A stretch of 39,495 nt of DNA from Deltaproteobacteria bacterium (GCA_016875405.1 VGRJ01000035.1:1-39495), one strand, 5' to 3'; counted from the stretch's first letter, positions 115 through 13,954 are shown. The notes: generated by a model not told the origin, from the letters alone. A program made the numbers and translations.

Positions 115-1332
115 TCAGCTCGCGAACATCGTCACGTCGGTCGCAGCCGCAAAGCAGATCTCCTTGGCCGCATCCCAGTCCGGGTGGCGGACGAGCAAGT
201 AGCCGTCCGAGACCAGCGTCTGCTTCCAATCGCGGCGATGGGCGCCTGGCCGAAGCAGCTGATCCTCGACGAGAAATCGCCCGTAGCGCTGCTTCCAGTG
301 GTCGAGCCCGAAGATCCCGGTGATTCGCCCCTGGCCCTTGGCGCGCTTGAACACGATGCCGCAGTTGTACAGGCGCGTCGTCGGCGCCTCGAACGAGCTC
401 CACGCCGCGACCCGAGCCCACTCGCGGAAGAGGTCGATGTCGCAGGTGTGGTTCATCTGGTCGACGAGGTGCGCACCCCCGGGGCGACAGCCGATCTCGC
501 CGAAGATCGCCTCGCCCTTCGGCGTGAAGAACCACTCCATGTGCGTGTACCCGCTGCCCATGCCCAGCGCGGAGAGGACCTTGCGACCGAGCTCACGACC
601 TTTGCGGATCTTCGCCTGCTCGAGATCCCTCACGGTGATGATGACCGGGCTGATCCACTCGTTTGAGCGCGCCTCGAGTGGCTTCGGCAGGTACTGTGCG
701 ACGTTCTCGAACGCCGGACGACCTTCGATGCATACGGTGTCGTAGGTGAACTCCTCGCCCTCGACGTACTCCTCGACGCTGACCTCGGTCACGCCTCGCA
801 GCATGCCGAGCACGCGCTCGAGCTCGGCGCGATCGCCGACGCGGTAGGTGTTGGCGCTGCCGGCACCCGCGATGGGCTTCACGATGAGCGGGTAGTCGAT
901 CTGCTCGGCCGCGGCGCGCACGTCGTCGGCGGTGAAGGCCCGGGCAGACCGCGGGGTGCGGAGGCCGGCCGCGCGCACGCGCTCCTTCATGAGCTCCTTG
1001 TCGCGGAAGCCTCTCACGGTGTCGACGCTCATGCCTGGGAGCCCCCAGCGCTCGCGCAACTTCGCGGCGAGGATGACGAGCGGCTCCCAGTTCGTCCACA
1101 CGCGGTCGATCGACTGGCCTCGGAGCGCGGCGGTCGCGCGCGCGACGACGTCGTCCTCGTCCATGATTCGCGGGACCGCGACGTAGCCGGAGAGGTAGCG
1201 CTTCACCGACTCGGGGAGCCGCTCGCGCGGGGTATCGCCAATGCCGATCACCTGCGCGCCGACCTCGGCGAGGCCTCGGCAGTACTGGATCATCTCGGGC
1301 GGATAGCTTGGGGCGAGGAAGACTACGCGCAT
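115..1332 (-). CDS. ATP-grasp domain ligase, paralogue A (divergent)
   Basis: A 405-residue ATP-grasp enzyme, predicted to be a cytosolic ligase that activates a carboxylate as an acyl phosphate and joins it to an amine or other nucleophile. The N-terminus is a Rossmann-like pre-ATP-grasp domain (VVFLAPSYPPE). A nucleotide-binding Lys lies in YPLIVKPIAGAGSA (K152). The hinge/adenine region is VSVEEYVEGEEF (about 185-196). Metal and phosphate ligands lie in HMEWF (E266) and FGEIGCRPGG (E279, R283). The E-I-x-x-R-P-x-G form resembles amino-acid and dipeptide ligases of the BacD/carnosine synthase type; that is family knowledge, and the substrate is unknown. The start is an ATG aligned with the starts of two paralogues at 1453 and 4176. 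The same frame stays open far upstream, but there it runs opposite the next gene. It is transcribed away from the rest of the locus across a 120-bp divergent spacer (1333-1452) that probably holds both promoters; I could not pick convincing boxes. Confidence 0.9.
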   Translation of the reverse strand: MRVVFLAPSYPPEMIQYCRGLAEVGAQVIGIGDTPRERLPESVKRYLSGYVAVPRIMDEDDVVARATAALRGQSIDRVWTNWEPLVILAAKLRERWGLPGMSVDTVRGFRDKELMKERVRAAGLRTPRSARAFTADDVRAAAEQIDYPLIVKPIAGAGSANTYRVGDRAELERVLGMLRGVTEVSVEEYVEGEEFTYDTVCIEGRPAFENVAQYLPKPLEARSNEWISPVIITVRDLEQAKIRKGRELGRKVLSALGMGSGYTHMEWFFTPKGEAIFGEIGCRPGGAHLVDQMNHTCDIDLFREWARVAAWSSFEAPTTRLYNCGIVFKRAKGQGRITGIFGLDHWKQRYGRFLVEDQLLRPGAHRRDWKQTLVSDGYLLVRHPDWDAAKEICFAAATDVTMFAS

Positions 1333-1452
1333 CGCGAGGCAGGGTAGCAAAGTTGCCGGCGTGCCGGCGCCTCGACGTTTGCGCCTGGACACGTTGGCGC
1401 TGCGGCATCCTGGCCGCGTCCGCCCGACTTGGGTACGCTCTCGACTCTCCCC

Positions 1453-2667
1453 ATGCGGCCCGTCGTCTTCGTCGCACCCTTTCCGCTCGAGACCACCATG
1501 CGCTTCGCGAGGGCCGCCGCGAGGCTTCCGGGCGTGCGCCTGCTCGCCGTCGTTCAAGAGCCGCCGCGCGGTCGCGACGCGCGCCTCTTCGCCGACGTGG
1601 TCCGAGTCAAGGACGGCCTGTCTACCGCGCAGCTCGCCGAAGCGGTCGACTTGCTCCGCAAGAAGTATGGGCAACCACATCGGATCGTGGGCGTGCTCGA
1701 GGTGCTTCAGGTGCAGCTCGCGACGCTCCGTCGCCACTTCGGCGTACCAGGCACTGACCCCGACACCGCCGATCTGTTCCGCGACAAGGCTCGAATGAAG
1801 GATCGGCTGCGAGCCGCGGGCCTGCCCGTCGCACGCCATGCGCTCGTCCACTCGCGCGCCGACGCCGAGGCGTTCATGCGGGCCGTCGGTTTCCCGATGG
1901 TCCTGAAGCCCCCCGCAGGGATGGGCGCGAAGGCCACCTTCCGGGTGCACGACGCCGAGGAGCTCTACCGAGCGCTCGGAGGCATGGGCGCGAGCCGCGA
2001 ACACCCCGTGCTCGCCGAGGAGTTCTTGACCGGCGAGGAGGGGAGCTTCGACACCGTGACCGTGGGCGGGGTGCCGAGCGGCGACTCGGTGTCCTTGTAC
2101 CTGCCGACCCCGCTCCGCGTGCTCGAGAACCCCTGGATTCAGTGGTGCTGCCTCTTGCCTCGCTCGATTCACACGCCCGAGTTCGACGCGGTCCGCGCGG
2201 TCGGCGTGAGGGCGATCAAGGTGCTCGGCCTGCGCGACGGCTTCACCCACATGGAATGGTTCCGAAGGCCCGACGGAACGGTGGCGATCGGCGAGATCGC
2301 CCAGCGCCCGCCGGGGGCGAACATCACGCGCATGATCGGCCTCGCGAACGACCTCGACCCCTATCGCGCGTGGGCTCGCGCCGTGATCGACGGCGCGTTC
2401 GACGGCCCCTGGGAGCGCCGACACGCGGTCGGCTGCGCGTTTCTCCGCGGCATGGGACGCGGCCGAATCTCGGGGCTCACTGGAGTCGCCGAGGCGAACG
2501 CGGCGGTCGGGCGGTTCGTCGAGGAGGCCGAGCTGCCGAAGCTCGGCGCGCCAAAGAGCGACAGCTACGAGGGCGACGGCTACGCGATCGTCCGCTCCGA
2601 CAGCACGGACGTTGTCCGACGCGCGCTGCGGACCATCATCGAGACCGTCAAGGTGCACTACGCATGA
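1453..2667 (+). CDS. ATP-grasp domain ligase, paralogue B
   Basis: A 404-residue ATP-grasp ligase, paralogous along its length to the genes at 115-1332 and 4176-5405. The pre-ATP-grasp domain begins MRPVVFVAPF. The ATP-binding Lys is in FPMVLKPPAGMGAKAT (K152). LAEEFLTGEEGSFDTV (about 187-202) follows, and the metal site is HMEWF (E268) plus GEIAQRPPGAN (E281, R285). The C-terminus ends with a small domain (GDGYAIVRSDS, then a helix) also found in the paralogues. I chose ATG 1453 over an in-frame ATG at 1429 because it lines up with the other two N-termini. Its stop overlaps the glgA start (ATGA, 2664-2667), so the two proteins are probably made together. The Asn seen at the metal site of many ATP-grasps is replaced here (E-I-A-Q), as in its paralogues. 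Substrate unknown. Confidence 0.9.
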   Translation: MRPVVFVAPFPLETTMRFARAAARLPGVRLLAVVQEPPRGRDARLFADVVRVKDGLSTAQLAEAVDLLRKKYGQPHRIVGVLEVLQVQLATLRRHFGVPGTDPDTADLFRDKARMKDRLRAAGLPVARHALVHSRADAEAFMRAVGFPMVLKPPAGMGAKATFRVHDAEELYRALGGMGASREHPVLAEEFLTGEEGSFDTVTVGGVPSGDSVSLYLPTPLRVLENPWIQWCCLLPRSIHTPEFDAVRAVGVRAIKVLGLRDGFTHMEWFRRPDGTVAIGEIAQRPPGANITRMIGLANDLDPYRAWARAVIDGAFDGPWERRHAVGCAFLRGMGRGRISGLTGVAEANAAVGRFVEEAELPKLGAPKSDSYEGDGYAIVRSDSTDVVRRALRTIIETVKVHYA

Positions 2668-4115
2668 AGATCCTATTCCTCTCGTCCGAGGTGGCTCCGT
2701 TCGCGAAGACCGGCGGGCTCGGCGACGTCGGCGCGGCGCTCCCGCGTGCGCTGGCAGCGCGAGGTCACGACGTCCGCGTGGTGATGCCGTGCTACCGCCG
2801 CGTGCTCGAGGGCAACCACCGCCTGCGGCTGCTCATCCCACCGATGACGCTCGCGGTCGGGCCCGCGCGGCTGTCCTTCGACACCCTCGAGGCGACGCTG
2901 CCCGGGTCGGACGTGCCGGTCTACCTCGTCCGCTGTCCGCGCCTCTACGACCGACCCAACGTCTACACGCAAGACGGCGACGAGCACCTCCGCTTCGCGC
3001 TCCTCAACTGGGCTGGGCTCCGCATCGCTCAGCAGCTCGGCTTCGCGCCCGACATCCTCCACGCGAACGATTGGCAGACCGGCCTCGCGCCGCTGATGGC
3101 GAAGACCGTCTTCGCGTGGGATCGGCTCTTCGAGCGCACGCGGTCGGTGCTCACGATCCACAACATCGGCCACCAGGGGACCTTCCCAGCCTCGGCGGTC
3201 CACGAGGTCGGGCTCGGCATAACCGCCGAGAGCTTCCACCAGGAAGAGCTCGCGCGCGGGCGCATGTCGTTCATGCTCACCGGCCTCCTCTACGCGAACG
3301 CGATCACGACGGTGAGCCCGACGTACGCCCGTGAGATTCAGACGCCCGAGCATGGCGTTGGGCTCGACGGGTACCTGCGCGCGCGCCGCGACGTGCTGTT
3401 CGGCATCCTGAACGGCATCGACGAGGACGAATGGAACCCCGCGAAGGATCGCCACCTGCCGCACCCGTTCAGCGCCGACGACCCTTCCGGCAAGGCAAAG
3501 AACAAGGAGGCCTTGCTGCGCGAGCTCGGCCTGCCGCAACGTCCCGGCGTCCCGCTCCTCGGCATCGTGAGCCGCCTCGCCTGGCAGAAGGGCTTCGACC
3601 TGTGCTTCGAGGCCCTTCCTGCGCTCTTCATGCAGCGGGATGTCCAGCTCGTGGTGCTCGGCTCGGGTGAGCCGAAATACGAAGCGTTCTTCGGGGAACT
3701 CGCGCGGCGCTTGCCGAACCGTGTGCGCTTTCTGAACCGCTTCAGCGAGCCGCTCGCACACCTCATCGAGGCGGCGAGCGATCTCTTCCTCATGCCCTCG
3801 CGCTACGAGCCGTGCGGGTTGAACCAGATGTACAGCCTCGTCTACGGGACGCCTCCCATCGTGCACCGCACCGGTGGGCTCGCCGACACCGTGCGCCGCT
3901 GGAACCCCATGACGGGGCAGGGCAACGGCTTCGTGTTCGATCACTTCGACGCGCGCGGGCTCAAGTGGGCGCTCGGCGCGGCGGTGGACGCCTACCGGCA
4001 GCGACGAGGCTGGAACCGCCTCCGCGACAACGGCATGCGCTCGCGCTTCGGATGGTCAGAGCGCGTGGTCGAGTACGAGGATCTCTACCGCAAGCTCTGT
4101 CCCCCTACGGCATGA
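2664..4115 (+). CDS. glgA: glycogen/starch synthase (GT5)
   Basis: Bacterial glycogen synthase of glycosyltransferase family 5, 483 residues, the usual length. It transfers glucose from ADP-glucose (family expectation) to the non-reducing end of an alpha-1,4-glucan in the cytoplasm. The hallmark N-terminal substrate loop is present as FAKTGGLGDVGAALPRAL (K15-T16-G17-G18). HANDWQTG sits in the N-terminal Rossmann half. The C-terminal Rossmann half has GIVSRLAWQKGFDL and the catalytic/nucleotide region MPSRYEPCGLNQMYSLVYG followed by TGGLADTV. The start overlaps the stop of the preceding ATP-grasp gene (ATGA). A 60-bp gap separates it from the next ATP-grasp gene. No glgB, glgC or glgP is nearby, so this may be the genomic glycogen synthase or a dedicated copy for the locus; the sequence alone cannot tell. 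Confidence 0.95.
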   Translation: MKILFLSSEVAPFAKTGGLGDVGAALPRALAARGHDVRVVMPCYRRVLEGNHRLRLLIPPMTLAVGPARLSFDTLEATLPGSDVPVYLVRCPRLYDRPNVYTQDGDEHLRFALLNWAGLRIAQQLGFAPDILHANDWQTGLAPLMAKTVFAWDRLFERTRSVLTIHNIGHQGTFPASAVHEVGLGITAESFHQEELARGRMSFMLTGLLYANAITTVSPTYAREIQTPEHGVGLDGYLRARRDVLFGILNGIDEDEWNPAKDRHLPHPFSADDPSGKAKNKEALLRELGLPQRPGVPLLGIVSRLAWQKGFDLCFEALPALFMQRDVQLVVLGSGEPKYEAFFGELARRLPNRVRFLNRFSEPLAHLIEAASDLFLMPSRYEPCGLNQMYSLVYGTPPIVHRTGGLADTVRRWNPMTGQGNGFVFDHFDARGLKWALGAAVDAYRQRRGWNRLRDNGMRSRFGWSERVVEYEDLYRKLCPPTA

Positions 4116-4175
4116 GAATTTGCCGCCCATTCGTCGCCCGCCACACGCGGCTCTGTTAACGTCGGGGCCCTCGCG

Positions 4176-5405
4176 ATGCCCATCAACGTCGTCTTCCTCG
4201 AGCCCGCCTTCCCCTCGAACCAGCGCGAGTTCGTCCGCGCCCTCCACGCCGTCGGGGCCCGCGTCATCGGCATCGGTGAGCGCCCGCTCCATGCGCTCGG
4301 TGACGAGCTCCGCTCGCAGATGATCCACTACGAGCAGATCTCGAACGTCACCAGCACCGCGCAGGTCGAGCGGGTCGTGAAGGCGCTCCAGCGAAAGCTC
4401 ACGATTCATCAGCTCGAGTCGACGATCGAGGCCCACGTCATGTGCGCCGCCAAGGTCCGAGAGGCGTGCGGAATTCCTGGAACGAGCGTCAAGACCACCT
4501 ACCTCTGTCGCGACAAGCCCGCGATGAAGGAGGCGCTTCGCGCCGCGGGGATTTCATGCGCGCAGTCGATCGGCTCGGGCGATCCCGAGGAGATCCGAGA
4601 CTTCGCGCGCCGCGTCGGCTACCCGCTGATCGTCAAGCCCCGCGACGCGGCAGGCGCCTCGGGCACGATGAAGTGCAACAACGATGCGGAGCTCGAGACG
4701 GCCTTCCGCTCGTTCGGCGTCGTGGCTGGCCGAAGCGTCGCGGTCGAGGAGTTCATCGAGGGGCACGAGGGTTTCTGGGACACGCTCACCGTGGGCGGGC
4801 GCGTGATCCACGAGTTTGTCAGCCACTACTACCCGAACGTCCTCGACGCGATGCGGCACCGCTGGATCAGCCCCCAGTTCATCGCGACGAATCGCATCGA
4901 CGCGGTCACGGGCTACGACGAGCTGAAGTTGATGGGCCGCAAGGTCCTCGGCGCCCTCGGCATCGAGTCGAGCCCGACCCACATGGAGTGGTTCTACGGC
5001 CCGAAGGGACTCAAGTTCAGCGAGATCGGCTGCCGCCCACCGGGGGTCCGTGCGTGGGACCTCTACGCGGTCGGAAATGACATCGACATCTACCGCGAGT
5101 GGGCGATGACGATGGTGCACGGCAAGCCGAGCCAGCCTCTGTCTCGGCGCATGGCCGCTGGCATCGTGGCGCTTCGCCCGAGCCAGGACGGCCGCATCGT
5201 CGACTACCGGGGGGTAGGCGACATCGAGCGTGCCTTTGGGCAGTGGATCATCGACGCGCACCTACCTTCGCCTGGGACGCCAACCCAGCCCGTCGAGGCC
5301 GGCTACATGGCGAACGCCTGGATCCGCCTCAAGCACTCGGACTACGACGAGCTTCGCCGCATGCTCGACATCGTCGGTCGGACCGTGAAGGTGATCGCTC
5401 GCTGA
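4176..5405 (+). CDS. ATP-grasp domain ligase, paralogue C
   Basis: A 409-residue ATP-grasp ligase, third member of the local paralogous set. The pre-ATP-grasp segment is INVVFLEPAFPSNQREFV. The ATP-binding Lys is in YPLIVKPRDAAGASGTMK (K154). The hinge region is VAVEEFIEGHEGFWDTL (about 188-204), and the metal ligands are HMEWF (E271) and FSEIGCRPPG (E283, R287). It shares the C-terminal EAGYMANAWIRL...VGRTVKV element with paralogue B. The ATG at 4176 aligns with the starts of A and B. Eleven bases separate its stop from the TTG start of the next gene, whose GAGGAGG ribosome site begins inside this stop codon, so they are cotranscribed. Substrate unknown; the overall fold call is secure. Confidence 0.9.
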   Translation: MPINVVFLEPAFPSNQREFVRALHAVGARVIGIGERPLHALGDELRSQMIHYEQISNVTSTAQVERVVKALQRKLTIHQLESTIEAHVMCAAKVREACGIPGTSVKTTYLCRDKPAMKEALRAAGISCAQSIGSGDPEEIRDFARRVGYPLIVKPRDAAGASGTMKCNNDAELETAFRSFGVVAGRSVAVEEFIEGHEGFWDTLTVGGRVIHEFVSHYYPNVLDAMRHRWISPQFIATNRIDAVTGYDELKLMGRKVLGALGIESSPTHMEWFYGPKGLKFSEIGCRPPGVRAWDLYAVGNDIDIYREWAMTMVHGKPSQPLSRRMAAGIVALRPSQDGRIVDYRGVGDIERAFGQWIIDAHLPSPGTPTQPVEAGYMANAWIRLKHSDYDELRRMLDIVGRTVKVIAR

Positions 5406-5410
5406 GGAGG
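5404..5410 (+). promoter_or_regulatory. strong Shine-Dalgarno site that fixes a TTG start
   Basis: GAGGAGG lies 6 bases before TTG at 5417 and starts within the stop codon of the upstream ATP-grasp gene. No ATG or GTG in the same frame lies closer, and any start further upstream would fall inside the preceding gene. This site is the main reason to begin the S51-like gene at the TTG. Confidence 0.7.
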
Positions 5411-5416
5411 ACGGCG

Positions 5417-6436
5417 TTGGTACCTGCACGTCGCTCCGGCTTGTCGCGGCCCGCGCCGCGTGTTCGCCAGGCCTCGACCCACGCCGAGGGGCGAAGCCGC
5501 CCCTGTGCGCTCGCGGTGCTTGGCCAGCAGCGCTTCGTCCGAACGCTGTCGTCCGCCGTCGCGGCGCTCGACGTCCGCGGCCGCTTCGCGCTCGTCACCG
5601 CCGGGTGGCAGGAGCGCGAGGGCGAGGACCAGGAGCTCGCCGATTACCTCGGCGGCAACACCGTGAATTTGCGCCTGCACCGGCGCGCTGACGAGCTCTT
5701 CGCAGAGGATCGTGAGCTCGCCGAGGCGCACCGAAAGAAGCAGGAGCTCCTCCGCTACCGGCAGGACTTCTACCGCATCCGACTCGAGCACGAGCTCGCC
5801 GCGAACCACGTGATCCGGCTTCGGCAGGCTCCGCGTGAGGTGCTCGCGCGCGAGGAGGGCGCGTCGATCGTCGCGATCCAGCAGCTCGACGAGTACCACC
5901 TCCGCCAATGCGCTGAGATCCACGAGGAGTTCGACGCTGCGATGAAGCCGCTCGAGCGCGCGACGCTCCGCAAGCACGCCGACGCGGTGGCTGAGCTCAT
6001 CGACGGCTCGAAGGCGATCGCGATCGCAGGAGGTCACGTGGCGACGCTCGTCAATCGCATGCGGCTCTTCGATCTCGCCGGGATGATCGATGGGCAGGCG
6101 GTGTTCGCCTGGTCGGGCGGGGCGATGGCCATAAGCGAGCGCATCGTCCTCTTTCACGACAACACGCCCGAGGGAGCCGTCGCGCCCGAGGTGCTCGACT
6201 ACGGGCTCGGCCTCTTGAAGGGCGTCGTCGTCCTGCCTCAGCCCGAGCAGCGCTTGCACCTCGACGACCGCGAGCGCGTTCAGGTCATGGCGCGTCGGTT
6301 CGCGCCGGCGAAGGTGCTGGCGTTCCCGCAGAGCTCGCACCTGACGCTTCACGGCGACGCGATCCACAGCGCCGAGAACGTATCGTCGCTCGACGCCAAC
6401 GGCGACTGCCGGCCCTATACGGAGGTGGCGTCGTGA
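5417..6436 (+). CDS. peptidase S51 / cyanophycinase-like protein with helical insertion
   Basis: A 339-residue protein started from TTG. The second half (about 198-330) has features of the class I glutamine-amidotransferase-like fold of peptidase E and cyanophycinase: AIAGGHVATLVNRMRLFDL corresponds to the family's GG...L strand-turn, and VFAWSGGAMAIS is the nucleophile elbow with Ser233. The family usually reads GxSAGA; here the Ala after Ser is Gly. Residues about 80-195 are charged and largely helical, probably a coiled-coil insertion or dimer arm. Such enzymes cleave acidic peptides or cyanophycin with a catalytic Ser; here I infer hydrolysis or transfer on an amide made by the neighbouring ATP-grasp enzymes. 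The stop overlaps the next start (GTGA, 6433-6436). It might instead be a non-catalytic relative; the general-base His is not obvious to me. Confidence 0.7.
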   Translation: MVPARRSGLSRPAPRVRQASTHAEGRSRPCALAVLGQQRFVRTLSSAVAALDVRGRFALVTAGWQEREGEDQELADYLGGNTVNLRLHRRADELFAEDRELAEAHRKKQELLRYRQDFYRIRLEHELAANHVIRLRQAPREVLAREEGASIVAIQQLDEYHLRQCAEIHEEFDAAMKPLERATLRKHADAVAELIDGSKAIAIAGGHVATLVNRMRLFDLAGMIDGQAVFAWSGGAMAISERIVLFHDNTPEGAVAPEVLDYGLGLLKGVVVLPQPEQRLHLDDRERVQVMARRFAPAKVLAFPQSSHLTLHGDAIHSAENVSSLDANGDCRPYTEVAS

Positions 6437-7572
6437 CGTCTTCGATCGAAGCGCTGATCGCCGACGCGCCCGTGACGCAATCCAAGGTCGCGGCGTGGAT
6501 GTCGGGGCGCTCGTTCCCGCTCGTGGAGGGGACCGCGGCGACGTTCGTGTGGCGAGGGGAGGCGCACGAGGTCAAGCTCCGCCACTTCATCTACGGCCTC
6601 GAGACCGCGCAGCCGCTCGCGCGCGTCGAGGGCACGGATCTCTGGTGGCTTACCATCGAGGTGCCGCCGCGCTCCCGCATCGAGTACAAACTCGAGGTGG
6701 TCCGAAGCGGCCACAACGAGTGGGTACAGGATCCGCTGAACCCACACCGCGCCCGCGATCCGTTCGGCGCGAACAGCGTCCTCCAAGGTGACGGCTATCG
6801 GATCCCCGACTGGATCCATCCCGACCCCAAGGCGCGTCGCGGCGTGCTCGAGCCGTTCTCGCTCCACTCCAACGCGTTCGGTGGGAGGCGGGGCGGTCAC
6901 ATCTACTTGCCGGCACGCTTCCGAACCTCGCGTCAGTACCCGCTGCTCGTCATGCACGACGGCTCGGATTACCTGAAGTTCTCAGGCATGAAGACGGTGT
7001 TCGACAACCTGCTCGAGCGCCTCGAGGTGCCCGACATGATCGTCGCGCTCATCGACTCTCCCGACCGCCTGACCGAGTACGGCAACGACGAGCGTCATGC
7101 GCGCTACGTCACCGAAGAGCTCGTGCCGCACCTCGCGTCACGCTTTCCGCTGATCGACCAGCCTCGCGCGCGCGGCCTGATGGGCGCGAGCTTCGGTGGC
7201 GTGGCCTCGTTCTCGACCGCGATCCGCTACCCCGGCTTCTGGGGGCGGCTCCTCTTGCAGTCCGGATCGTTCGCGTTCACGGACATCGGACGACGCAACC
7301 ACCGCGGCCCGGTGTTCGATCGAGTCGTCGAGTTCATGAACGTCTACCGAAGCGCTCCGAAGCCCGTGAGCGAGCGCGTGTTCGTGAGCTGCGGCGTCTA
7401 CGAGTCCTTGATCTACGAGAATCGCTCGCTCGTGCCGATCCTCGAGTCGACTGGCATGCAGGTGCGCTTCGTCGAAGCCCGCGACGGGCACAACTGGGAG
7501 AACTGGCGCGACCGCTCCCGCGAAGGGCTATCGTGGTTATTCCGGGGTCCGCTGATGATGGTCTACGAGTGA
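6433..7572 (+). CDS. esterase D/enterochelin-esterase-like hydrolase with N-terminal E-set-like domain
   Basis: A 379-residue serine hydrolase. Residues about 30-125 look like an immunoglobulin/E-set or CBM48-like beta domain (ATFVWRGEAHEVKLRHF...WWLTIEVPP...YKLEV), as seen before the catalytic domain of enterochelin esterases and in glycogen-acting enzymes. The alpha/beta-hydrolase domain (about 145-375) carries YPLLVMHDGSDY, the nucleophile elbow GLMGASFGGVAS (Ser253), a likely acid in GVYES (E324) and the base in EARDGHNWENW (His353). There is no signal peptide, so it is predicted cytosolic. It starts at GTG 6433 within the previous stop (GTGA), and the next gene starts 8 bp after its stop. 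Substrate unknown; in context it may cleave or transfer an ester on the product of the locus. The E-set-like domain beside glgA could mean an alpha-glucan ligand, which is speculative. Confidence 0.82.
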   Translation: MTSSIEALIADAPVTQSKVAAWMSGRSFPLVEGTAATFVWRGEAHEVKLRHFIYGLETAQPLARVEGTDLWWLTIEVPPRSRIEYKLEVVRSGHNEWVQDPLNPHRARDPFGANSVLQGDGYRIPDWIHPDPKARRGVLEPFSLHSNAFGGRRGGHIYLPARFRTSRQYPLLVMHDGSDYLKFSGMKTVFDNLLERLEVPDMIVALIDSPDRLTEYGNDERHARYVTEELVPHLASRFPLIDQPRARGLMGASFGGVASFSTAIRYPGFWGRLLLQSGSFAFTDIGRRNHRGPVFDRVVEFMNVYRSAPKPVSERVFVSCGVYESLIYENRSLVPILESTGMQVRFVEARDGHNWENWRDRSREGLSWLFRGPLMMVYE

Positions 7573-7580
7573 GGTGAGAC

Positions 7581-8831
7581 GTGGCCGAGAATGAAACCGT
7601 TCGCACGATTGGTCTGTCGCTGGGCGCCGACATCTGTTGGCCGGCTTGCTATGAGCACATGATGCGTCGGCTCGATCTTCGGATCCCGAGCCCCGACGGC
7701 ACCCTTCGCTTCAACGTCGAGCGCGTCTTCATCGAGCCGTTCGACCTCGAGCAGAGCTGTCGCTACGACGTCGTCATCGATCGGTTGACGCACTGGTACC
7801 ACACCAGCCGCGAGTGGATTAAGAAGGCGATCATCCTGAACGACCTCTACGTGTTCAACAACCCGTGGTCGTTGCAGTCGATGGAGAAGCACACGTCGTA
7901 CTGCGCGATGATGCGCCTCGGCATGCCGATCCCAAAGACCTGGCTCGTGCCGCCGAAGGCGTACGCCGGCGCCAACCCCGACGTGCAGCCGACCTTGAGC
8001 CGCTACGCGAAGCTCTTCGACCTTGGGAAACTCGGCGAGCAGGTCGGCTTTCCCCTGTTCGTGAAGCCCTACGACGGCGGCGGCTGGCGCAGCGTCGTGC
8101 GGTGCAAGGATGAACAGGCGCTGCGTGACGCCTACGAGAAGTCGGGTACGGACGTGATGCACGTGCAGGCCGGCGTGAACCCCTTCGACCGCTTCGTCCG
8201 CACCATCGGCTTCGGGCCGCAGACGCACCACGTGCGCTACGATCCCGACGCGCCGCTGCACGATCGCTACACGATGGAGGAGGGCTTCATCCCGACGGCA
8301 GAGGAGGAGCACCTTCGCAAGGTGACGCTCACCATCAACGCGTTCTTCGGTTGGGAGTTCAACAGCTGCGAGTCGCTGCGAAAGGACGGGGTCTGGTACC
8401 CGATCGACTTCGCCAACCCGTGCCCGGACTCGCAGGTGACGAGCTTGCATTACCACTTTCCGTGGCTCGTCAAATCCTACCTTCAGTGGAGCATCTTCTG
8501 CGCGGCGACGAAGCGGAAGATGAGAAAGACGCTCGACTGGGAGCCTTTCTACGAGATCGCGGACAGCGGCTCGAGCTTCGATGAGCGTCTCGACGGCTAC
8601 GCCAAGATCGCTGAGCGGCGCTTCGAGTCGGACCGCTTCGAGGAGTTCTGCGGCAAGCACCTCGCCCACCTGGACGAGGCGCTCTACGAGTTCTTCGCGA
8701 CCCAGGACGCCAAGACCGCGGTGCGCCAAAAGGTCACCGCGCTTTACCCCGCCCACGAGATAGAGCCTTTCACCGAGCTCTTCTGGGGACGAATTCAGAA
8801 GTGGCGCGCCGACAGCGCCGCGACGAAGTGA
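7581..8831 (+). CDS. ATP-grasp protein, RimK/D-Ala-D-Ala-ligase-like type
   Basis: A 416-residue ATP-grasp protein from a different subfamily than the three 405-residue paralogues. The N-terminal ~90 residues form a pre-ATP-grasp domain (TIGLSLGADICWPACYEHMM, then VIDRLTHWY). FNNPWSLQSMEKHTSYCAMM opens the ATP-grasp proper. The nucleotide Lys is in FPLFVKPYDGGGWRSV (K152), and the C-terminal lobe has metal-ligand candidates in GWEFNSCES (E259) and WYPIDFANPCPDSQ (D276, N279), so the Asp/Glu-and-Asn metal site looks intact. A ~100-residue helical tail follows. The GTG start at 7581 has GAGGTGAG just upstream. It sits 8 bp after one esterase and 8 bp before another, a probable three-gene functional unit. 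Reaction inferred: ATP-dependent carboxylate-amine or carboxylate-thiol/alcohol ligation; substrate unknown. Confidence 0.85.
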   Translation: MAENETVRTIGLSLGADICWPACYEHMMRRLDLRIPSPDGTLRFNVERVFIEPFDLEQSCRYDVVIDRLTHWYHTSREWIKKAIILNDLYVFNNPWSLQSMEKHTSYCAMMRLGMPIPKTWLVPPKAYAGANPDVQPTLSRYAKLFDLGKLGEQVGFPLFVKPYDGGGWRSVVRCKDEQALRDAYEKSGTDVMHVQAGVNPFDRFVRTIGFGPQTHHVRYDPDAPLHDRYTMEEGFIPTAEEEHLRKVTLTINAFFGWEFNSCESLRKDGVWYPIDFANPCPDSQVTSLHYHFPWLVKSYLQWSIFCAATKRKMRKTLDWEPFYEIADSGSSFDERLDGYAKIAERRFESDRFEEFCGKHLAHLDEALYEFFATQDAKTAVRQKVTALYPAHEIEPFTELFWGRIQKWRADSAATK

Positions 8832-8839
8832 GGAGCAGC

Positions 8840-9586
8840 ATGGAGCACGAGTCGACTCGTTGGTATTCGGACCGCGTCAAGCGCGAGGTCACGCTGAACC
8901 GCTGGGGCCACATGGGCCAGCCGGTGCTCATCTTCCCGACCGCAGGCGGAGACGCGGGCGAGATCGAGCGTATGCACGTCGTGCGCGTGCTCGGGGATTT
9001 GATCGACGCGGGTCGCATCAAGGTTTATTCGTGCGACAGCGTCGGCGGTCAGGTGTGGTTCTCGAAGGAGGGCTCACCCGAATACCGCATGTGGATGCAG
9101 CACCAGTTCCACCAGTACGTGAAGCACGAGGTCGTACCGGCGATCCGCACCGACTGCCGCTCACCCGACATCGGGATCTGGGCATCCGGCGCCTCGATCG
9201 GCGCGTTCCACTCGGTCGCCGTGGTCTGCCGCTTCCCCGACATCTTCACGCGTGCGCTCGCGATGAGCGGGACCTTCAACATCCTCCGCTTCATCGAGAC
9301 GAACTTCAATTACACCGAGGAATACTTCGTCTCGTCTCCGCTCCAGTTCGTGCCGACGCTCGACGGGCCTCACCTCGACGCCCTTCGCCAGCGCTTCATC
9401 TTGTTCGCGACGGGCGAGGGCAGGGCCGAGAACATCGGCGAGAGCTGGGCGATGGCAAACATCCTCGGGCGCAAGCGAATCCCCAACCGCGTCGACTCGT
9501 GGGGGCCCGAGTGGCACCACGACTGGCCTACGTGGCGCAACATGCTCCCGAAGTACCTCGACGAGTGGACGTCGCGCGGGGCATGA
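8840..9586 (+). CDS. alpha/beta-hydrolase esterase, compact form
   Basis: A 248-residue serine hydrolase of the esterase D/enterochelin-esterase superfamily without an accessory domain. VLIFPTAGGDAGE forms the oxyanion-strand region, the nucleophile elbow is IWASGASIGAFHS (Ser119), and a C-terminal WGPEWHHDWPTW carries the candidate base His (226/227). It has no signal peptide. I start it at ATG 8840, which has AGGAG at 8831-8835, rather than at in-frame codons overlapping the upstream gene. It ends the plus-strand run, 36 bp from the end of a convergent gene. Only the fold is shared with the esterase at 6433; I see little close sequence similarity, so the two probably act on different bonds. 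Substrate unknown. Confidence 0.82.
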   Translation: MEHESTRWYSDRVKREVTLNRWGHMGQPVLIFPTAGGDAGEIERMHVVRVLGDLIDAGRIKVYSCDSVGGQVWFSKEGSPEYRMWMQHQFHQYVKHEVVPAIRTDCRSPDIGIWASGASIGAFHSVAVVCRFPDIFTRALAMSGTFNILRFIETNFNYTEEYFVSSPLQFVPTLDGPHLDALRQRFILFATGEGRAENIGESWAMANILGRKRIPNRVDSWGPEWHHDWPTWRNMLPKYLDEWTSRGA

Positions 9587-9622: not shown

Positions 9623-11557
9623 TCAGTCAGGGAACGAGAGGAGGAGCGCGTCGGTCGCACCGGCGCTCGTCTTCGTCGTCGCGTCGATCGTGACCTTCCC
9701 CGAGAAGTGCCCGCCCACGAAGACGCCCTTCGGACCCAACCCGACGCTGCGTGCCTCCTGGTAGAAGCTCGCGTCGCCGAAGCGTCGCGTCCAGATCCCG
9801 GCGAGCTTCGAGTCGAGCCGCGCGATGAGGAGATCCCGGCCGCCTGCGCTCGTTACGGGCCCTTGGCCAAAGTCGACGCTCCCGGTCGTGTAGCCGGCAA
9901 GGACCGGGCTCATGGCTGCGTCGAGCGCGAGCGCTAGCGCCGACTCGTCGCCCGCGCCTCCGTAACGCCGGCTCTGAAGGTGTGCGCCTGCGACGTCGAG
10001 CTCGGCCAGAAAGACATCGAAGCCACCGGCGCTTGTGAGGACGCCTCCGCCGAAGTCGAGCGCTCCCTCGAACTCGCCGCCCATGAGCGGACCTCCGCTC
10101 GGCCCCACGACCAACGTTCGTCCGGCATCGAGGCCCTTGCCGCCGAAGCGCGCGGCGTCGAGCGGCGTACCGGTCGCTCCAGCAAAGCGAGCGAAGAGGA
10201 TGTCCGAGAGCCCGGCGCTCGCGAGGTTCTTCGCGCCGAGTGAGAACGCGCCGAAGAATTCTCCCACGACAAGGACGTCACCCTTCGCATCGACCACCAC
10301 GTCGCGCCCCGCGTCGAAGTCGGTCCCACCGAAGCGTCGCCCCCACGCGGCCGCGCCTGTCGCGCCGCTCAGCCTGGCGACGAAGCCGTCTTGCAAGCCG
10401 GTCGCGGTCGCGTTGACGCCGTTGAACGTCATCGTCCCTGCGAAGGCGCCGGTCACGAACACGTTGCCCACCGCATCGCAGGTGACAGCGTGTCCGATCT
10501 GGTCGTCGCTGATGTTGCCGAACCGCACAGCCCAGAGCGGGGCCCCGGTCGCGCCTGCGAGCTTGGCGACGAAGACGTCGGCGCCACCCACGCTCGTGAG
10601 CGTCGTCGTGCCGAACGCGATCGTGCCGCGGAAGTACCCGGTAACGAGCACGTCCCCGCTCGCATCGACGGCCACACCGAGCGCGGCTTGGCTCTCGCCC
10701 GCATCGCCGAACGCGAACCCCCAGATCGGCGCGCCGTTCTCGTCGAGCTTCAGCACGTAGGCGTCCGAGAGGCCCGCGCTCGAGAGCGAGAGAGGCCCGA
10801 CGGCGAGGGTCCCCTCAAGCTCGCCTGCGAGGACGAACCCGCCGTTGACCGCGGCAGCAACCCCGTGGACGAGCTGCGTCTTTGCGTCGCCTGCCTGAAG
10901 CGAGAACGTCGCGGGGCACACGGGGTTCTTGCCGTCGCAGTCCTCGTCGACCGGGGTGAGACAACCGTCGACGCTCGGAAGAATCTGGCCCTCGCACAGA
11001 CCCCAAGCGGTGCCTTCGGCGTTGCAGGTGTGAACGCCGCCGATGCATGCGCCGACGTTCTCGGTCTTGGGGTCGCCGTCGTAACAGTACGACGAGGCGT
11101 TGGGCTTGCAGACGCAAGCGTCACCGGCCTCATTCGTCTTGCCGTCGCAGTCGTCGTCGATCGGGGTGAGGCAGGTCTCGAGGACCGGGACGACCTGGCC
11201 GCCGCACGGACCAAAGGCGCTCCCGTCCGGGAGGCAGGTCGCGACGCCCGCCTTGCAGACGCCGACGTCGCGGGTTCCGTCAGCGCCGTCGTAACACTCG
11301 CGCGTCTCCCCTGGCGTACACGGCCCGCCGGTCATGCCGCCCGAGCCGGCTGAGCTCTCGGCGCCTGCTGCCCCGCCGCTCCCGCTGACGACCGCGCTCG
11401 CTCCCGCGGCGCCGCCGGCTCCTCCAGCGCTCGCCGAGCCACCGTCACCCCCACCGCTGCCAATCGATGACGACCCGGCCTGCGCGCAGGCGGCGACGAG
11501 GCAAAGCAACCCGAGCCAGGTGAACCTCTCGACGACCGCGTACCGCCCGCGGATCAT
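9623..11557 (-). CDS. lipoprotein with MopE-like Cys/Asp motifs and SBBP beta-propeller repeats
   Basis: A 644-residue predicted outer-surface lipoprotein. The signal peptide ends at lipobox VAAC (Cys24) and is followed by a long Gly/Ser/Ala linker. Residues about 75-210 hold two copies of a cysteine-rich unit containing CLTPIDDDCDGK and CLTPVDEDCDGK, as in MopE-type putative metal-binding repeats. The rest is a series of ~50-residue repeats (FGDAGESQAALGVAVDASG, DVLVTGYFRGTIAFG) of the SBBP beta-propeller kind. The start ATG 11557 overlaps the upstream stop (ATGA, 11554-11557), so it is translationally coupled as the last gene of a three-gene operon. I expect a structural or binding role on the cell surface. 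No catalytic motif is visible. Confidence 0.88.
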   Translation of the reverse strand: MIRGRYAVVERFTWLGLLCLVAACAQAGSSSIGSGGGDGGSASAGGAGGAAGASAVVSGSGGAAGAESSAGSGGMTGGPCTPGETRECYDGADGTRDVGVCKAGVATCLPDGSAFGPCGGQVVPVLETCLTPIDDDCDGKTNEAGDACVCKPNASSYCYDGDPKTENVGACIGGVHTCNAEGTAWGLCEGQILPSVDGCLTPVDEDCDGKNPVCPATFSLQAGDAKTQLVHGVAAAVNGGFVLAGELEGTLAVGPLSLSSAGLSDAYVLKLDENGAPIWGFAFGDAGESQAALGVAVDASGDVLVTGYFRGTIAFGTTTLTSVGGADVFVAKLAGATGAPLWAVRFGNISDDQIGHAVTCDAVGNVFVTGAFAGTMTFNGVNATATGLQDGFVARLSGATGAAAWGRRFGGTDFDAGRDVVVDAKGDVLVVGEFFGAFSLGAKNLASAGLSDILFARFAGATGTPLDAARFGGKGLDAGRTLVVGPSGGPLMGGEFEGALDFGGGVLTSAGGFDVFLAELDVAGAHLQSRRYGGAGDESALALALDAAMSPVLAGYTTGSVDFGQGPVTSAGGRDLLIARLDSKLAGIWTRRFGDASFYQEARSVGLGPKGVFVGGHFSGKVTIDATTKTSAGATDALLLSFPD

Positions 11558-12750
11558 TGCGCCACCATGGTCGTGCAGCCGAGCTCGATCGTGACCTTCC
11601 CGGTCGGATCCGTCTTGACCTTGTCGCAGGTTGCCCCGCAGAGCAGGATCTTCGTCTTGTCCGATGAATACTGCCATCCGTCGGCGCTCGCGCACGGCTT
11701 CTCGTCCTGGAAGAGCGCGACCGGTTCGCCCAACGACGGGTCATAGGTGACGTTGACCTTGTCGTAGTCGATCTCATCGCCAACGACGCTCGGCACGTCG
11801 AGCTCGCAAGTGAGAGCGGTGCCGCTCACTTTTTCGAGGGCCGCGCTCAGCTCGGCGGCGAAGTCCAGGCTCGGGTCCGTCATGTCGAAGTGGCAGTCGC
11901 CGACGTTGCTGGGCGCTGGAGCGTGTTTGCACTGCGGATCCACAGCGGTCCCGCCTGACCAGGCGATTTGAGAGAGCAAGGCTCGCGCCGGATCACTACC
12001 GGGCGCGCCAAGAACGAAGGTCCTTATCCCCACCGAGTAAGCGAGCGGCACCGTCTCGCTCACGAACTGTTGCTGGAGCCCTACGGCACAGGTCTCGTCG
12101 CCGTCGGTGAGCAAGACCACGAATGAGTTGCCCTCGGCCTTGAGGTCCTCGAAGAGGTGCTTGTATCCGAGCGTCACGGCCCCCACGATCGGCGTCGCGC
12201 CCTTAGGCTTTACGGCGTCGACGCTCGCCGCGAGCAACGTGAGCTGCGCGGTGGAGAGAGGCGCGAGCGCCACGGAAGGCGCCTGGCTGACCCCGCAGGC
12301 GTCGTCGCTGTTGAAGAGCGCGAGCCCCACCTTGGTCGCGGCTGGCATTTTCGCGAAGGTCTCTTTCAGCGCGGAGGCGACGACGTCCCAGCGCGAGGGT
12401 TTGCTCGAATCCTTCGCCGTGGGGTTCAGCTCACATGCGGTGCTCGTCTGCAGCGGCGGCGGGTTGCAGTTCATGCTGCCGCTCCTGTCGATGACGAACA
12501 GCAGGTTCGTCGGTCTGAGCTTGCCCTCGGTGACGCTTTTTGCGCACGCTTCGCTCCCGCCGCCTCCGCCAGCTCCGATGGTCTGCAGGGCGTCACCTCC
12601 GGCCCCTGAGGCCGAAGCGGGGCCGACGCCGCCGCTGCCACCGGCGGATGCCGTGGTCGCGCTCGCCGATGTCCCCACCGCGCCGCACGCGGTCGACCAT
12701 GCCGACACGAGCCCGAGGAGCGCGAGGGAAGCAGCGACCGCGCGTCTCAT
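11554..12750 (-). CDS. VWA-domain lipoprotein (paralogue 1)
   Basis: A 398-residue lipoprotein: signal peptide with lipobox STAC (Cys22), a Gly/Ser/Ala linker to about residue 65, then a von Willebrand A domain (about 80-300) with an intact MIDAS: VIDRSGSMN (D88-x-S-x-S), the Thr in KGATPIVGAV and the Asp in LLTDGDETC. A C-terminal domain of about 85 residues (TCELDVPS...DGWQYSS...KILLCGATCDKV...IELGC) recurs in the upstream gene. VWA domains bind protein partners through the metal, so adhesion or complex assembly at the surface is likely. Its stop overlaps the next start by ATGA, and it begins one base after the upstream gene's stop. Confidence 0.88.
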   Translation of the reverse strand: MRRAVAASLALLGLVSAWSTACGAVGTSASATTASAGGSGGVGPASASGAGGDALQTIGAGGGGGSEACAKSVTEGKLRPTNLLFVIDRSGSMNCNPPPLQTSTACELNPTAKDSSKPSRWDVVASALKETFAKMPAATKVGLALFNSDDACGVSQAPSVALAPLSTAQLTLLAASVDAVKPKGATPIVGAVTLGYKHLFEDLKAEGNSFVVLLTDGDETCAVGLQQQFVSETVPLAYSVGIRTFVLGAPGSDPARALLSQIAWSGGTAVDPQCKHAPAPSNVGDCHFDMTDPSLDFAAELSAALEKVSGTALTCELDVPSVVGDEIDYDKVNVTYDPSLGEPVALFQDEKPCASADGWQYSSDKTKILLCGATCDKVKTDPTGKVTIELGCTTMVAQ

Positions 12751-12751
12751 T

Positions 12752-13954
12752 TCACCCCTGCAAGCAGCCGACGTCGACCGTCACCTGCGCTCCCTCGGCG
12801 ACCTGCACCTTGCTGCACGCGGCAGGGCAGAGGAGGATCTTCGAAGGCGCGAGGTTGTCCTCGTAATACCACCCCTCGCCAGCGCACTTTGACGCGTCGT
12901 CGACACGCGGAAAGGTGGTCTTGAAGTTCATCCCGTCGACGAGCTTCACCGAGACCTTCTCGGCGTCGATCGCCTGACCGTTCGGATCGTTCTTCGGGAG
13001 CGAGTACTCGCATGAGAGCTTTGAGACGACGTTGTCGGCGATCGCCTTGAAGATCGGACCGTAGTCGGCTTCGCACTCCGAAAACTGCGAGCCTTTGGTC
13101 AGCGCGACGAGCGACTGGTAGACGAGCCCGTTCTTGAAGGCGGTCGCACACTTCTGCGCTGGGTTGTTCTTGTCGATACCGATGATCCCGTAGAAGACAT
13201 ACTTTCGTTGATTCGCATCCCCAAACATGCCGACCGGTGCCTTTGCGAGGAGCGCGGTGTCGAAGGCGGATGCCGACATCGCCGAGTCGTCGTCCGTCAC
13301 CACGATGAAGGTCTTGGTCGCCTCCTTTCGCAGGAATCCAGACCAGCTGTGCTGCGGGTTCTCGCTGTCGTAGGTCGAGAGCAAGAGCGACAACGCATTC
13401 GTACTGCCGACCGTCTGCGGCACCATGCGATAGAGAGGCAAGTTGGAGCCGCAGTTGGGCCCGCCGAGCGGAGGAGCCACGCAGACTGCGAGCGAGTCCG
13501 TGCCCTTCGTCGCGAGCATCACCAGGCGGTAGTCGAGCGCTCCCTGGCCGAGCACGTCGGCGAAGCTCCCGTTGATGTTGGCCTTCACCTGGGCGATTTC
13601 GGCCGACATGCTGCTCGAAGTGTCGACGGCGAAGACAATGTCGACCGGGGCCTTCTTACCAACGATCTCAGTCGTAGCGCACGAGCCGCCGCTGCCCCCA
13701 GCGCCGCTGGGATCGTAGTTGAAGTCTGGTGCGCCTCCGCTGCTGCTCGCCGAAGCGTTCGCGCCGCCTGAGCCGCTCGTGGAGGCGGCCGCGCCGCCTG
13801 AGCCGCTCGTGGAGGCGGCCGCGCCGCCTGAGCTGCTCGCCGAAGCGCCGGGGAACCCGGTCGACGACGATGAGGTGGGAGTCAGGTCGCTGCTCGAGCA
13901 AGCTGCTAGGAGGCCAAGGGCGACGAATGGCACGCGAGCGCCGCGCTTCATCAT
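12752..13954 (-). CDS. VWA-domain lipoprotein (paralogue 2), first gene of operon
   Basis: A 400-residue lipoprotein opening the minus-strand VWA operon. The signal peptide ends at LAAC (Cys19). A low-complexity Ser/Gly/Ala linker (about 20-90) contains two identical 10-residue repeats encoded by an exact 30-bp tandem duplication. The VWA domain (about 100-310) has MIDAS FAVDTSSSMS (D111-x-S-x-S) and IVVTDDDSAMS. The C-terminal Cys-rich domain (SCEYSLP...GWYYED...KILLCPAACSKV...VDVGC) matches the tail of the downstream paralogue. An ATG at 13951, one codon in, is an equally good start. The 126 bp upstream (13955-14080) should hold the operon promoter; I see no convincing boxes there. Confidence 0.88.
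   Translation of the reverse strand: MMKRGARVPFVALGLLAACSSSDLTPTSSSSTGFPGASASSSGGAAASTSGSGGAAASTSGSGGANASASSSGGAPDFNYDPSGAGGSGGSCATTEIVGKKAPVDIVFAVDTSSSMSAEIAQVKANINGSFADVLGQGALDYRLVMLATKGTDSLAVCVAPPLGGPNCGSNLPLYRMVPQTVGSTNALSLLLSTYDSENPQHSWSGFLRKEATKTFIVVTDDDSAMSASAFDTALLAKAPVGMFGDANQRKYVFYGIIGIDKNNPAQKCATAFKNGLVYQSLVALTKGSQFSECEADYGPIFKAIADNVVSKLSCEYSLPKNDPNGQAIDAEKVSVKLVDGMNFKTTFPRVDDASKCAGEGWYYEDNLAPSKILLCPAACSKVQVAEGAQVTVDVGCLQG
13771..13830 (-). repeat. exact tandem duplication of a 30-bp unit in lipoprotein linker
   Basis: Two identical 30-bp units (13771-13800 and 13801-13830) lie in the linker of the VWA lipoprotein, flanked by diverged partial copies at 13741-13770 and 13831-13845. 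The unit is a multiple of three, so copy-number change would lengthen or shorten the linker without a frameshift. Confidence 0.9.

Follow-up and report, generated by a model that had tools for sequence, protein, structure and literature searches.

Eight genes within 9.5 kb, encoding four ATP-grasp ligases, a glycogen synthase, a peptidase-S51-like protein and two esterases, act as one system or pathway, a conclusion well supported by their linkage and co-occurrence in other genomes. An earlier reading made from the DNA alone (hereinafter the sequence-only reading) had drawn this unity from the spacing of the genes; the comparative data now lend it strong support.

Gene content and setting of the locus

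The window, that is, the whole 39,495-nucleotide stretch analysed (C35:1-39495), belongs to a 5.0 Mb assembly of 218 contigs that is 99% complete, and its host is a Polyangiaceae-type bacterium. The sequence-only reading had placed eight genes in 9.5 kb, and gene calling combined with Pfam and NCBIfam models recovers every one of them where it had been placed:

115-1332, minus strand: ATP-grasp ligase A, putative L-amino-acid-ligase type, 405 aa (PF02222/PF13535), divergent from the operon
1453-2667, plus strand: ATP-grasp ligase B, 404 aa (PF02222)
2664-4115, plus strand: glycogen synthase GlgA (GT5), 483 aa (TIGR02095, E 3e-162, 540 bits)
4176-5405, plus strand: ATP-grasp ligase C, 409 aa (profile match to the L-amino acid ligase PDB 4wd3 and to BacD)
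5516 (or 5441)-6436, plus strand: S51-like protein (PF03575, E 1.3e-4, just below the cut-off)
6433-7572, plus strand: esterase E1, enterochelin-esterase-like, 379 aa (PF00756 and PF11806)
7581-8831, plus strand: RimK-like ATP-grasp ligase R, 416 aa (RimK fold in the structural model)
8840-9586, plus strand: esterase E2, putative-esterase alpha/beta hydrolase, 248 aa (PF00756, E 4e-7)

The start of the S51-like gene is uncertain, lying either at 5516 or at a TTG at 5441. The genes are packed as closely as had been claimed: B and GlgA, like the S51-like gene and E1, overlap by 4 bp, E1 and R as well as R and E2 are separated by 8 bp, and GlgA and C by 60 bp. With intergenic gaps of at most about 120 bp, the locus leaves little room for the precursor peptide gene of a graspetide (RiPP). 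Rfam, promoter and terminator scans of the locus returned nothing useful, and inspection by eye found no signal peptides in the cluster proteins. Directly after E2, on the minus strand (9623-13954), lie three ORFs predicted to be lipoprotein-like; judged by eye, one contains repeats and the other two are von-Willebrand-A-like. The compared loci show no linkage between these ORFs and the system.

Conservation of the locus across genomes

We searched for ligase R in 188 Myxococcota genomes and in genome contigs, where 402 of 404 pattern matches encode a relative; none was found in plasmids. The 100 loci compared below consist of the best 80 of these 402 relatives plus 20 R-centred regions taken from distant Myxococcota, and a few of them are two stretches of one genome. 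The 188 Myxococcota form the systematic genome sample, and Gammaproteobacteria and Actinomycetota are covered only through R-centred loci.

When all eight proteins were compared with the R-centred loci by tblastn, E1 proved linked to R in 87 of the 100 loci, the S51-like protein in 80, E2 in 73, C (the most frequently linked of the three ATP-grasp paralogues) in 72, GlgA in 47, B in 36 and A in 35, all of these counts being lower bounds because many contigs end within the locus. The loci come from Myxococcota, Gammaproteobacteria, Actinomycetota and one Eisenbacteria MAG, and the same families recur in them, in many cases with their order preserved. In Myxococcota the extended arrangement seen most often is FGase - GlgA - C - S51 - E1 - R - E2 - GCS2-CBS - aspartoacylase-like (the additional families are described below), a composite, since no single locus contains both the FGase and the aspartoacylase-like gene. 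The divergent arrangement of A and B is also linked in homologous loci, the two forming a nearby divergent pair in Myxococcota, where GlgA is inverted in some loci. One gammaproteobacterial locus (L090) carries all eight genes in about 10 kb with GlgC alongside, in the order GlgC - B - S51 - E1 - R - E2 - A(-) - GlgA - C. Two Actinomycetota loci (L102 and L108) contain A, B, C, E1, R, E2 and GCS2-CBS, and tblastn found no match to GlgA or the S51-like protein in either.

Co-occurrence follows the same pattern. Among the 188 Myxococcota, 55 genomes contain both R and C and 130 contain neither, with R alone in one and C alone in two (raw counts, shared ancestry ignored). By the same raw counting, GlgA and GlgC are each found in 55 of the 56 R-positive genomes, compared with 75 and 66, respectively, of the other 132. 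Pairwise distances of the families correlate at 0.54-0.91, values that include shared species history and are lowest for A versus C and R. Every one of the eight proteins is conserved, and their linkage recurs in dozens of other genomes, which puts their association far beyond chance. The sequence-only reading had named scattering of the genes in related genomes as grounds for dropping the single-system idea, and the comparison of gene neighbourhoods did not refute it.

The eight-gene set is itself incomplete. Clustering of the remaining ORFs in the compared loci revealed three further conserved families outside the window: a ligase of roughly 650 aa with a GCS2 and two CBS domains (GCS2-CBS; 48 of 100 loci by tblastn, 43-46 by clustering), an aspartoacylase/succinylglutamate-desuccinylase-like hydrolase named from its sequence (23 of 100) and an N-formylglutamate-amidohydrolase-like protein (FGase; 13 of 100). 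The window's own genome encodes a GCS2-CBS homologue elsewhere (48% identity), and no relatives of the aspartoacylase-like or FGase-like proteins were detected in it; because of these absences and this distant homologue, the steps contributed by the three families are not universal. Many Myxococcota that lack R (G007, G013, G023, G150 and others) also encode GCS2-CBS proteins, with about 50% identity to the linked protein.

Properties of the encoded proteins

The fold assignments made earlier for the ATP-grasp proteins, GlgA and both serine esterases hold, with catalytic residues that are invariant among aligned relatives. A, B and C are indeed three paralogues, and their lengths range from 404 to 409 aa instead of being exactly 405 residues throughout. 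The catalytic pair of Lys, the two Glu that bind Mg and the intermediate-stabilising Arg of ATP-grasp enzymes are invariant in the aligned members of all three, as illustrated by K112, K116, K152, E187, E266, E279 and R283 in A (n=34 sequences) and K152, E268, E281 and R285 in B (n=34); the ATP-grasp catalytic residues of C are likewise invariant (n=62). A profile of C, the only one of the three so compared, finds the L-amino acid ligase 4wd3 as its best PDB match (E 2.9e-26) and also matches BacD, and A and B have L-amino-acid-ligase-like family scores in Pfam and NCBIfam. The three thus resemble L-amino-acid ligases and are predicted, from these sequence comparisons, to form dipeptides in an ATP-dependent manner. 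The same genome encodes three more ATP-grasps of the A/B/C family on contigs C90, C18 and C129 (L162 7328-8542, L163 5168-6409 and L164 1-822), one of which is 54% identical to B.

Ligase R is conserved across phyla at a mean column identity of 69%, and its residues K103, K162, E264, D276 and N279 are invariant (n=90 sequences). Its AF2 model (pLDDT 89) has RimK (5zct) as nearest PDB structure, with Z 20.3 over 264 residues within residues 8-310; a C-terminal helical extension (about 311-416) lies outside the match. A Pfam scan of R gave no match, and its score against TIGR00768 (24.1 bits) is below the RimK family cut-off of 143.4.

The model of the S51-like protein (pLDDT 91) is closest to pseudo-CphB (7uqv, Z 16.8), cyanophycinase (3en0, Z 16.6) and PepE (Z 15.7), with a helical hairpin of two long helices inserted at residues 66-147. 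The cyanophycinase/PepE fold of family S51 is therefore borne out, but a working S51 peptidase is not supported. Across 78 sequences the nucleophile position is Ser in 50, Cys in 14, Ala in 5, Gly in 5 and Thr in 4, and the position of His275, located from the sequence alignment and not from model coordinates, is His in 10. On these counts we rejected the idea that the family functions as an active S51 peptidase; with neither catalytic Ser nor His conserved, the protein is probably not a peptidase. The copy in the window itself has Ser200 and His275. The Cys variants include those of a Myxococcota group (L036, L037, L045, L048-L051, L053, L055, L063, L065, L067, L068 and L070). No CphA (ATP-grasp plus Mur-ligase domain) is encoded among the eight genes, and none was recognised among shared neighbours.

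E1 combines an N-terminal E-set/CBM-like domain with a CE1-type esterase (PF11806 Enterochelin_N and PF00756 Esterase), and the Ser-His-acid set expected of an enterochelin-esterase-like enzyme is present, S253, D351 and H353 being invariant (n=86 sequences). Its nearest PDB profile matches are enterochelin esterase (the best) and CBM-bearing feruloyl esterases, and its score against the Fes equivalog PRK10439.1 (101 bits) falls below the cut-off of 222. Weak similarity to CBM_20 was seen in 13 of 27 E1 members and to CBM_48 in 4 of 27, in every case below the Pfam cut-off (best E-values 0.0026 and 0.0061, respectively). S119 and H227 of E2 are invariant together with an acidic residue (n=65 sequences); we found no close PDB relative of E2.

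GlgA matches TIGR02095 over its full length and retains the KTGGL motif and the C-terminal Glu, with K15 and E382 invariant (n=43 sequences). In a FastTree tree the clustered GlgAs form one dedicated clade, which does not include the second GlgA copy encoded by those genomes; its only other members are standalone copies in two genomes, G036 (L151, 5242-6705) and G089 (L152, 7548-9011). Neither R nor C has a match in these two genomes, and the dedicated-type GlgA can therefore act without the ligases; in G036 it adjoins yebC/ruvC-like genes. GlgC joins the cluster in three loci (L090, L059 of Enhygromyxa salina SWB007, and L114), and in L059 and L114 a GlgA of the other type stands next to GlgC beside the cluster. 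In the Actinomycetota and Eisenbacteria loci L098, L102 and L108, GlgA is encoded elsewhere in the genome, not near the cluster.

A candidate pathway and its relation to known systems

The reading we favour, at slightly below even confidence, is that of a dedicated pathway, located in the cytosol, in which a peptide-like compound is assembled by ligation without ribosomes at the expense of ATP and is also turned over, the whole being coupled to alpha-glucan metabolism. What the data establish are the content of the cluster, its linkage and co-occurrence, and the intact catalytic residues. In the reaction order that we infer, with its substrates, its glucan attachment and its cytosolic location, A, B, C, R and, in many genomes, the GCS2-CBS ligase would activate carboxylates as acyl phosphates, which would be joined stepwise to amino (or hydroxyl) acceptors. 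The dedicated GlgA would make alpha-1,4-glucan from ADP-glucose, and E1, through an N-domain resembling starch/glycogen-binding modules, and E2 may cleave ester bonds or transfer them. For the S51-like protein, binding of the product or scaffolding of the enzymes would be the most likely role, and the most likely product would be an amino-acid or peptide adduct on, or made together with, an alpha-glucan. The glucan link is suggested by the dedicated GlgA clade, the occasional GlgC and the CBM-like domain of E1; the presence of GlgA in the compared stretch of 47 of 100 loci (many contigs being short), its occurrence without R and C in G036 and G089, and the below-cut-off CBM similarity of E1 count against it. 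More specific, and rather doubtful, is a new reserve or signalling polymer in which ATP-grasp ligases would covalently decorate an alpha-glucan with amino acids or short peptides and a glucan-binding esterase would trim it.

A small soluble peptide metabolite, serving as osmolyte, redox buffer or nitrogen store, is possible though not probable as the product; here the ligases would make and the hydrolases recycle the compound, and GlgA would be a chemically uninvolved operon partner that stores carbon when the same conditions prevail. The classical substrates of the GCS2, FGase and aspartoacylase families, small derivatives of Glu or Asp, would suit such a metabolite, as would the distant GlgA in L098, L102 and L108 and the dedicated-type GlgA found without ligases. 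However, the GlgA linkage is kept in Myxococcota and Gammaproteobacteria despite rearrangements, GlgC is present alongside in three loci, and almost all R-positive genomes contain both GlgA and GlgC, all of which counts against this reading.

We consider it improbable that the genes specify a depsipeptide or siderophore-like natural product whose ester bonds are opened by E1. ATP-grasp enzymes can form ester bonds, as in D-Ala-D-Lac ligases, and enterochelin esterase is the best PDB match of E1; but no NRPS or transporter was recognised among the genes common to the loci, and the conservation of R across phyla is unlike that of most secondary-metabolite clusters. The high conservation of the core ligases makes an important function more likely than an occasional secondary metabolite. 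Peptide tagging of a protein by R, in the manner of RimK and ribosomal protein S6, is very improbable: RimK is the closest fold to R, yet R scores weakly against the RimK family model, C resembles ligases of free amino acids, as A and B do by their family scores, and no conserved gene for a protein substrate or tag was seen among shared neighbours. Chance adjacency of unrelated genes, with which the opposite strand of A and the dispersal of the genes over about 70 kb in some genomes, such as G177, would agree, is scarcely credible and was rejected on the recurrent linkage in 100 loci and the co-occurrence of R and C in 188 genomes.

The system comprises up to eleven enzymes and is present in 56 of the 188 sampled Myxococcota and, beyond them, in three or more other phyla, with no product described in the literature searched. 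That literature contains no matching system; the amidoligase survey of Iyer et al. 2009 stands outside the comparison and may hold an earlier mention, and PMC2824669, PMC2922099 and PMC11237479 describe other ATP-grasp systems. If the glucan link is true, the locus would specify a peptide-modified storage glucan of a new type; otherwise it still represents a new amidoligase pathway.

C matches by profile the ATP-grasp dipeptide synthetases known as L-amino acid ligases (4wd3, BacD, BL00235), whose length and catalytic Lys/Glu/Arg pattern are common to A, B and C; unlike those enzymes, three paralogues are here encoded with a RimK-like ligase, GlgA and two esterases. R shares the fold of RimK, an S6 and poly-alpha-glutamate ligase, and has intact ATP-grasp residues, but differs in about 100 extra C-terminal residues, a weak family-model score and no visible link to S6. 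The S51-like protein has the fold of cyanophycinase and peptidase E (family S51), from which it departs in the hairpin at 66-147 and the unconserved catalytic Ser and His. E1 is like enterochelin esterase Fes and CBM48-type feruloyl esterases (CE1) in domain layout and in catalytic Ser and His, but shares its locus with ligases and GlgA. Full-length and with intact catalytic residues, the clustered GlgA belongs with the GT5 glycogen synthases, but it forms a separate clade and is a second copy besides the genome's other GlgA. The whole is reminiscent of the amidoligase neighbourhoods that Iyer, Aravind and colleagues reportedly predicted in 2009, in which ATP-grasp and GCS2 ligases are said to stand with assorted hydrolases, a general ligase-and-hydrolase theme shared with the present system.
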